A DNA stretch of 64,000 nt, taken from assembly GCF_003574315.2 (NCBI RefSeq), contig NZ_AP025739.1, forward strand, positions 6,138,001 to 6,202,000, written 5' to 3'. This DNA comes from Capsulimonas corticalis. Its GTDB lineage: Bacteria > Armatimonadota > Armatimonadia > Armatimonadales > Capsulimonadaceae. Positions within the stretch are counted from its first letter, which is position 1. Each line of letters opens with the position of its first letter. Both the position numbers and the translations under genes were made by a program. This document shows positions 33,474-36,411 of the stretch, piece by piece. Under the pieces are notes generated by a model. That model was not told where the DNA came from and searched no databases. It worked only from the letters and a program-made list of their open reading frames with translations.

Positions 33474-34586
33474 TTAAATCTTCCACTCCCCATTCTCATG
33501 GATCACCACGCCGTCGGCGTAAATCGCTCCCCCACCCGCGTCAGGACGCATATCGCAGACCATATCCCAGTGGACCGCTGAGGAGTTGACGCCGCCCGTC
33601 TCTGGATAGGCGTTTCCTAGCGCCAGATGGAACGTGCCGCCGATCTTCTCGTCATAGAGAGTATTGCGCGTGTAGCGCCTCACGCCGTAGTTGTTGCCGA
33701 TCGCCACCTCGCCCAGCGAGCGGGCGCCGGGATCGGTTTCCAGCATTTCCTCTAAGAACTCCAGGCCGCTGGACGCTTCGGCGCTGACCACACGTCCATT
33801 CTCAAAGGTCAACTGGATATCGTGGACTTCGTGGCCCAAATGCGCCGTCGGGAATGTGTAGCGCACCCGGCCATTGACGGAGTTTTCGATGGGGCCGCTA
33901 AAGACTTCGCCGCTGGGAAAGTTGCGATGACCGTCTGAATTGATCCAGAGACGGCCTTCGACGGACATGGTGATATCCGTGTCGGCGGCGACGAAGCGCA
34001 GGGTCTTCACCTGGTTGAGATAGTCGACGTAGTGCTGCTGTTTGCGTGAGAACTCGCGCCAGGCTTCGGCGGGATCGTCCTGGTCCAGGAACATCGCGGA
34101 CATCACGAACTCTTCATACGCCGCCAGCGACAAGCCCGCGTTCTGCGCGGCCGCCGGCGTGGGGAAGAGGGTCAGGACCCAATCGGCCTTCTCCGTCGCC
34201 GTGCGCTGAAACAAAGACTTGCGGATGATGCTGTTCGCCTTTTGCGCCTTCGCCTGCTTGGCGGGATCGACGCCGGAAAGGCCCGCCGTGTTAGTTGGCG
34301 CCATGATCGCGCACATCGCGTCGATCGTCTCGTACTCAAACTTACGGATCGGAGAAACATACTCCAACTGCTCGTCGCTGGCCGTCGTCAAAAAGACTTC
34401 GTCCAGGCCATCCAGCAGGACCTGAAGATGCGGATGCGCGCCGAGTCGGATCGCCGACGCGTACACTTCGCGCGCCAGCGGGACGCCGGCTTCATCCACA
34501 CGAATCAAGAGCTGCTGGCCCGCCTTGAGGCTCAGGCTGTACTGGGTCATCGTATTGGCCCATTTCGTCAAACGAGGATCGTGCAT
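33474..34586 (-). CDS. M29-family aminopeptidase
   Basis: The protein has 370 residues from the ATG at 34586. It resembles the thermophilic AmpS/AP II family of dinuclear metal aminopeptidases: the N-terminal LTKWANTMTQYSL and AGQQLLIRVDE, NFPSGEVFSGPIE, LGEVAIGNNYG, the metal-site His in GGTFHLALGNAYPETGG and the HWD triad residues in SSAVHWDMVCDMR. Glu, His and Asp ligands of the family therefore appear in order. There is no signal peptide, so it should be cytosolic. The neighbouring genes are unrelated. Confidence 0.9.
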   Translation of the reverse strand: MHDPRLTKWANTMTQYSLSLKAGQQLLIRVDEAGVPLAREVYASAIRLGAHPHLQVLLDGLDEVFLTTASDEQLEYVSPIRKFEYETIDAMCAIMAPTNTAGLSGVDPAKQAKAQKANSIIRKSLFQRTATEKADWVLTLFPTPAAAQNAGLSLAAYEEFVMSAMFLDQDDPAEAWREFSRKQQHYVDYLNQVKTLRFVAADTDITMSVEGRLWINSDGHRNFPSGEVFSGPIENSVNGRVRYTFPTAHLGHEVHDIQLTFENGRVVSAEASSGLEFLEEMLETDPGARSLGEVAIGNNYGVRRYTRNTLYDEKIGGTFHLALGNAYPETGGVNSSAVHWDMVCDMRPDAGGGAIYADGVVIHENGEWKI

Positions 34587-34635: not shown

Positions 34636-34779
34636 CCCCGGTTATGAAACCCGGGTCTGGGAGGGCTTCGCCCTAACCGTCCGTGCCGGACGGAGGAATA
34701 TATGTTGTCGATTGCCAGCATTTGCGTCCGGCACGGACGGTTAGCCGAAGGCTCCCAGACCCGGGTTTCATAACCGGGG
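34636..34779. repeat. 144-base near-perfect palindromic element
   Basis: The outer arms (34636-34663 and 34752-34779, 28 bases) are exact reverse complements and include CCGGTTATGAAACC. The inner 19-base arms (34674-34692 and 34725-34743, containing CCGTCCGTGCCGGACG) are also exact. The two 8-10 base spacers between arms differ. The 32-base centre is unpaired. It is close to the size and shape of a miniature inverted-repeat element. No second copy lies in the window. Confidence 0.75.
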
Positions 34780-34843: not shown

Positions 34844-34882
34844 AAAAAAAGCCCTCTTCCCACGTGAGTAGGAAGAGGGCTG
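34844..34882 (-). terminator. Terminator after atpA
   Basis: GCCCTCTTCC pairs perfectly with GGAAGAGGGC around CACGTGAGTA. Read on the minus strand it follows the atpA stop and is succeeded by TTTTTTTG. Confidence 0.9.
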
Positions 34883-34896
34883 GGCGTCACGTTAAG

Positions 34897-36411
<1,515 letters not shown>

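Follow-up and report, generated by a model that had tools for sequence, protein, structure and literature searches.

The gap between the genes for an M29 aminopeptidase and atpA in Capsulimonas corticalis holds a nested palindrome, which raises the question of whether this DNA controls the neighbouring genes, forms one large conserved structure, or is a copy of something that moves. A sequence-only reading of the window (the whole 64,000-nt stretch of DNA that was analysed, to which coordinates without a prefix refer) had proposed a mobile miniature element or a large cruciform. The 144-nt palindrome is present as that reading described it, with outer arms (34636-34663 and 34752-34779) of 28 nt that are 100% complementary, unequal spacers (9 and 7 nt) and a 32-nt centre. 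The inner arms (34673-34692 and 34725-34744) are also perfectly complementary, but they measure 20 nt and not 19. The features of the locus are as follows.

33477-34586, minus strand: M29 aminopeptidase gene (PF02073)
34636-34779, no strand: whole element of 144 nt, consisting of two inverted halves and a centre; genomic copies start and stop near these points
34636-34655, plus strand: outer hairpin A of the left half
34662-34674, plus strand: middle hairpin B of the left half, behind the foot GGGAG
34677-34693, plus strand: inner hairpin C of the left half
34693-34724, no strand: centre of 32 nt that separates the inner arms (in 31 of 43 listed pairs, see below, the model matches lie 30-37 nt apart)
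34725-34739, minus strand: inner hairpin C of the right half
34743-34753, minus strand: middle hairpin B of the right half, unlike the left B in sequence
34760-34779, minus strand: outer hairpin A of the right half
34850-34881, minus strand: terminator-like hairpin of atpA
34900-36411, minus strand: atpA (PF00006, PF00306, PF02874)

The palindrome thus lies 49 nt 5′ of the listed start codon of the peptidase gene and 3′ of the terminator-like hairpin of atpA. As DNA, it is predicted to fold with -74.2 kcal/mol, compared with a mean of -31.8 (sd 3.2) for dinucleotide-shuffled versions (z = -13.1), and none of 200 such shuffles gave as stable a fold. A search of the palindrome against Rfam returned six matches at E ≤ 1, each of them under the gathering score of its family.

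This palindrome belongs to a family that is dispersed in the genome of C. corticalis (7.65 Mb in one contig, called C1 here). A search with a 181-nt query gave 104 alignment pieces, a count in which many palindromes are matched on both strands; the best copy besides the palindrome itself has 94% identity to the query. Most of the 20 loci from this search and of 15 further places share the boundaries of the outer hairpins and have unrelated flanks, and a few are truncated. A single copy conserved at the locus, which the sequence-only reading had set against a mobile element, is therefore not what was found. Present activity is unproven, since no movement was observed and no copy is identical to the query.

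To count the halves of these elements, we used patterns and then a covariance model. An initial pattern was too strict (13 halves found), and a second one found 86, of which one, in a tandem array, was set aside. With loop and end motifs as a filter, 62 of the 85 halves were accepted; the 23 that were dropped include several family members (for example at 661106 +, 2350470 -, 3304942 +, 3305048 - and 1578650 -). The covariance model of the half-element, termed R1, is based on 38 hand-picked halves among the 62 accepted ones, and because of this those 38 match it by construction. R1 detects at least 124 half-elements at E ≤ 0.01 in this genome, which is a lower bound, as scoring covered 150 of the 5076 first-look candidates. 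Among the 103 halves listed (of at least 124), 86 form 43 neighbouring pairs, and all 43 pairs are arranged plus then minus, with no other orientation. The centres of these listed pairs measure 30-37 nt in 31 cases and 46-53 nt in 10, and two pairs overlap. The other 17 listed halves are unpaired, and both ends of the first transposase gene described below are among them. The uniform orientation and the near-constant centres indicate that the pair, with its near-fixed centre, is the unit that spread.

Each half is about 60 nt long and consists of three local hairpins. Hairpin A is the outer one (for example CCCGG-TTATGAAAC-CCGGG), hairpin B in the middle is preceded by a GGGAG-type foot, and the inner hairpin C is built around CGTCCG-TGC-CGGACG. 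In nearly all of the 38 aligned halves, the foot of B reads CTGGGAG, CTTGGGAG, CTGGGGG or CTGGGAA. Hairpin B has an uninterrupted stem of 4-6 pairs in 59 of the 62 accepted halves, with 12 different stems, and an interrupted one in the other three; hairpin A is also variable in this set. The 38 aligned halves have 87.2% paired cells (78.2 when shuffled), 66 double changes (24.4 in shuffles) and a covariation score of 0.227 (0.081 when shuffled, and 0.103 for the best slid version), and none of 500 shuffles reaches any of the three values for pairing, double changes or covariation. The number of further pair types in the same alignment shows no excess over shuffling (105 of 500). The alignment is one column off for hairpin B in the CTTGGGAG halves and for hairpin A in subfamily 2, so that the pairing counts are lowered, and hairpin C says little on covariation because it scarcely varies.

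Within a short element, the left and right halves have different B hairpins in 24 of 24 cases, and different A hairpins in 13 of 24 as judged by a script, some of these in stem extent alone. Since B varies between the halves while its stems are kept, the local hairpins are conserved, and their inverted order in the two halves accounts for the long palindrome. The conserved unit is thus a hairpin triplet and not one cruciform; the unlike B hairpins, the retained stems and the covariation all speak against the large cruciform of the sequence-only reading. (We make no claim that the halves have to differ because a long perfect palindrome must be avoided, as shuffling of partners gave P = 0.18-0.23 for zero identical pairs.) Separately, a tandem array of 24 copies, with a 30-bp period and 99% matches, lies inside one element half (L038:1669-2395, about C1:2349668-2350394); each repeat combines the GGGAG foot and hairpin B with the 5′ portion of hairpin C.

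The Pfam domain Y1_Tnp (PF01797) occurs at five places in the genome, which correspond to four open genes and one fragment, with identities to the first enzyme of 24-50%. The first gene (C1:2171871-2172365) is bracketed by halves of the palindrome's subfamily, which form inverted repeats of 66 nt with 65 of 66 nt inverted-identical. The second gene (C1:2822418-2822852), whose product is 50% identical to the first, has 88-nt ends that belong to a second subfamily. No flanking repeat was found for the two other genes (at L035 and L036), and the fragment lay outside this comparison. The first enzyme is a protein of 165 aa in which Y1_Tnp is the sole domain found, with the motifs DHVH, WQ and YIKNQKQHH; in the second enzyme, WR replaces WQ. 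The first enzyme scores 61.9 with the curated IS200 model NF033573 (cut-off 55) and 24.5 bits with the curated RAYT model NF047646 (cut-off 80), and has Y...Q..HH, not Y...NP. Its predicted structure (mean pLDDT 87.6) is best matched by the TnpA proteins of ISDra2 and IS608, although with a large rmsd, and also matches the REP transposase structure 4er8 at E 5e-5. A HuH fold with catalytic motifs is thereby shown for the predicted model.

The second gene has an orthologue in Capsulimonas sp. RYN_270 that is 88% identical and lies in the same neighbourhood, with flanking blocks of about 1270 and 1230 nt at 87% identity. Since the orthologue and both flanks align, this transposase gene has been inherited in place. 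Between its right end and the next conserved gene, C. corticalis has about 830 nt more than RYN_270 (L033:1922-2757), and this extra DNA holds a GNAT acetyltransferase-like ORF (named by eye) and another short element.

Insertion sites were compared with one other genome of Capsulimonas (G001, 69% complete), whose TnpA ends are 65-nt sequences identical to the ends in RYN_270 (L073, L092). In G001, atpA and the peptidase gene are neighbours: the aligned blocks are 42 nt apart, compared with 237 nt including the element in C. corticalis. G001 in turn has an element 3′ of the peptidase gene and another on contig C678, and the C. corticalis sequence at the junctions matching those two contains none of the palindrome family. 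The two species thus differ in presence and absence at three junctions. A fourth site is occupied in both, by subfamily 1 in G001 (L173, on contig C710) and by subfamily 2 in C. corticalis (C1:3304919-3305071). Exact insertion ends are unreadable from the empty site in G001, where the flanks are too diverged. As for a target-site duplication, which the sequence-only reading had named as a check, one of at least 4 nt is present in 1 of 25 elements, with 0.94 expected.

The flanks themselves have a feature for which a REPIN-like model does not account, namely an excess of palindromy over shuffled partners (P = 0.003, summed score). At L045 (up to about 20 nt), L025 and L010 they prolong the inverted repeat, which would fit insertion of the element into the middle of a pre-existing palindrome, or an additional outer module. 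At another place where the sister genome carries a family element (L208, about C1:2553340-2553752 in C. corticalis), C. corticalis instead has a large inverted repeat of a different kind, which contains TTCG hairpins and perhaps belongs to another repeat family.

A search of GTDB genomes for relatives of the first enzyme gave 272 confirmed stretches, and the analysis uses the best 80 of them; 75 of these 80 have Y...Q..HH. An inverted repeat with a score of at least 16 is present on both sides within 350 nt for 50 of the 80 relatives, compared with 5 of 400 mismatched controls, in which the upstream part of one locus was paired with the downstream part of another. At a score of 25, the counts are 28 of 80 and 0 of 400, and windows displaced by 1 kb have flanking inverted repeats in 0 of 63 cases. 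By record title, the repeats flank 7 of 8 relatives in Armatimonadota, 16 of 30 in Bacteroidota and 27 of 42 in others; several of those in Bacteroidota are short, and some are without a hairpin. Among the loci listed, the ends in Armatimonadota again have three hairpins, in quite different sequences: an inner and a middle one, and an outer one whose loop is often of the TGAA or TAAA type.

Copies of a gene-flanking end elsewhere in the genome were found in all five further genomes searched, with few in one of them, G008 (5 pieces, of which two are the gene's own ends). The search in G010 gave 46 pieces on 34 contigs, with six close pairs, all six plus then minus, and the G010 query gave 26 pieces in G007, mostly shorter. 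Desulfonema magnum has 140 pieces of a Y1-flanking end, many in tandem arrays. Two Gemmataceae genomes have 47 and 62 pieces, with 16 and 22 close pairs in plus-minus order versus 10 and 8 in other orientations. Furthermore, R1 has matches in 12 of 16 genomes with an enzyme relative, some of them few and weak, versus 0 of 5 genomes without one, four of which belong to one genus (one-sided Fisher P = 0.006, 21 genomes); it finds nothing in the other 4 of the 16.

Very probably, the palindrome is a non-autonomous, REPIN-like element that the Y1 HuH transposase encoded at C1:2171871-2172365 moves in the form of single-stranded DNA. Its two inverted ends, each of about 60 nt with three hairpins, would be recognised in single-stranded form by this enzyme, which is encoded elsewhere in the genome. 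By analogy with IS200/IS605 enzymes, it may cut and join the hairpins of the half-elements during replication. The first enzyme, and not the related second one, would be expected to move the palindrome's subfamily, and the element presumably has no selected host function. The mobile miniature element of the sequence-only reading is thus borne out by the dispersed copies, by a transposase gene with the same ends and by the absence of the element at the sister junction. We use the name "REPIN-like element of subclass-1.2 type" because the function appears REPIN-like, but the GT[AG]G tag of REPs is missing and the enzyme scores below the RAYT model.

Other explanations account for parts of these data. 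A structured RNA, terminator or attenuator that is retained for control of the peptidase gene would fit the strong fold, the covarying hairpins and the position just 5′ of the start codon. However, the sister genome has no element at this junction, copies are dispersed with unrelated flanks, no Rfam family reaches its gathering score, and the terminator-like hairpin of atpA is a separate structure, so that we regard such a role as very improbable; a side effect of the element on gene expression is possible. A classical MITE, which derives by deletion from a DDE transposon, has terminal inverted repeats and inserts with a target-site duplication, would likewise be short, non-coding and dispersed, with inverted ends, and could be absent at the sister junction. 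Yet target-site duplications in the 25 elements are not beyond chance, and the genes found with the same ends, among the PF01797 places, encode Y1 HuH enzymes, which leaves this origin scarcely credible.

An old immobile repeat is a further, unlikely alternative: no transposase would take part, and spread as well as change would result from recombination, gene conversion or replication slippage. Hairpins A and C are indeed combined with different B hairpins in varying ways, the 30-bp array of 24 copies has arisen inside one half, and one site has different subfamilies in two species. However, such processes leave unaccounted for the presence and absence at otherwise conserved junctions, the single orientation of all 43 listed pairs, and the fact that relatives of the enzyme are flanked in the same way by ends of quite different sequence.

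Compared with known systems, the REPIN-like element and its enzyme share features with several. In the passages on subclass 1.2 drawn on here, Quentin et al. 2018 (PMC6006769) give the motifs DH[IV]H, WQ and YIKNQKEHH, about 148 aa and a low copy number, and describe the subclass as lacking REPs and generally IS200-type ends, and as occurring mainly in Cyanobacteria and Bacteroidetes. The first enzyme fits this subclass in its motifs and its similar length, but its gene is flanked by inverted hairpin repeats, as are those of 50 of the 80 relatives, which differs from the description in those passages. According to the same source, the automatic REP search required a GT[AG]G or GTAG/GTGG tag; since this tag is absent here, ends of the present kind may have been overlooked. 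Our literature searches, from which subscription journals were mostly outside the scope, gave PMC6006769 as the only paper on subclass 1.2, none on this subject in Armatimonadota (Armatimonadetes) among the papers listed, as judged by title and the start of the abstract, and no other paper in which ends of this kind are described.

Like REPIN/RAYT systems (REPtrons), as portrayed in passages of PMC6006769 and PMC3733652, the family consists of hairpin units that are dispersed as inverted pairs, and these units also lie on both sides of a single-copy Y1 HuH gene (here at 2 of 5 PF01797 places); a transposase gene is inherited in place (here the second) and different subfamilies go with different enzymes. 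In contrast to the single hairpin of 20-40 nt given there for REPINs, the ends here have three hairpins in about 60 nt. Canonical REPs also have a GT[AG]G tag at the hairpin foot, which is absent here, and RAYT/TnpA_REP enzymes (class 2) have Y...NP where the first enzyme, which scores under the NF047646 cut-off, has Y...Q..HH. The Y1 genes flanked by TIRs, with small TIR families, that are reported in the passages drawn on from Di Nocera et al. 2013 (PMC3733652) resemble ours in their long terminal inverted repeats (66 and 88 nt here) and small dispersed families, and some of those TIRs are self-complementary. However, these TIRYT enzymes, which PMC6006769 in the portion concerned puts in class 2 (20 of 26 in subclass 2.1), mostly have a C-terminal HTH extension, whereas the 165-aa enzyme here has only Y1_Tnp, with Y...Q..HH; triple-hairpin ends are not described in section 16 of PMC3733652. 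Finally, IS200/IS605 elements (IS608, ISDra2) share the HuH fold, hairpins at the ends, the lack of a target-site duplication and a score above the curated IS200 model, but the family here has long inverted-repeat ends, small non-autonomous copies dominate it, and there are no multiple near-identical gene-bearing copies, the Y1 genes being 24-50% identical to the first.

On balance we lean, with some reserve, towards regarding the Y...Q..HH branch (subclass 1.2) as a REP-type system of its own, with ends of two to three hairpins and REPIN-like inverted pairs, that is separate from the GT[AG]G-tagged RAYT line and spans Armatimonadota, Planctomycetota, Desulfobacterota, Chloroflexota and others. 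The results offer a concrete and testable candidate DNA partner for a class of HuH enzymes that had no known role, and the DNA for a test of binding or cleavage can be derived directly from the alignment of half-elements. The multi-hairpin design would be added to the ways in which a single-strand transposase may maintain populations of tiny repeats, and the flanking inverted repeats are the point at which the description of subclass 1.2, as given in the passages drawn on from PMC6006769, would change. For annotation, the results suggest that palindromes of this kind be treated as mobile repeats and not as regulatory RNAs.

Two loci among the relatives have further features. The closest relative of the first enzyme (62% identity), in a MAG of Longimicrobiaceae (L093:2001-2396), has a stop codon within the gene, and hairpins lie on either side of it, but no long inverted repeat was scored. 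In D. magnum (L114), the repeat adjacent to the Y1 gene forms long head-to-tail arrays at about 3075150-3078520 and 3465083-3469300, with a spacing near 50 nt.
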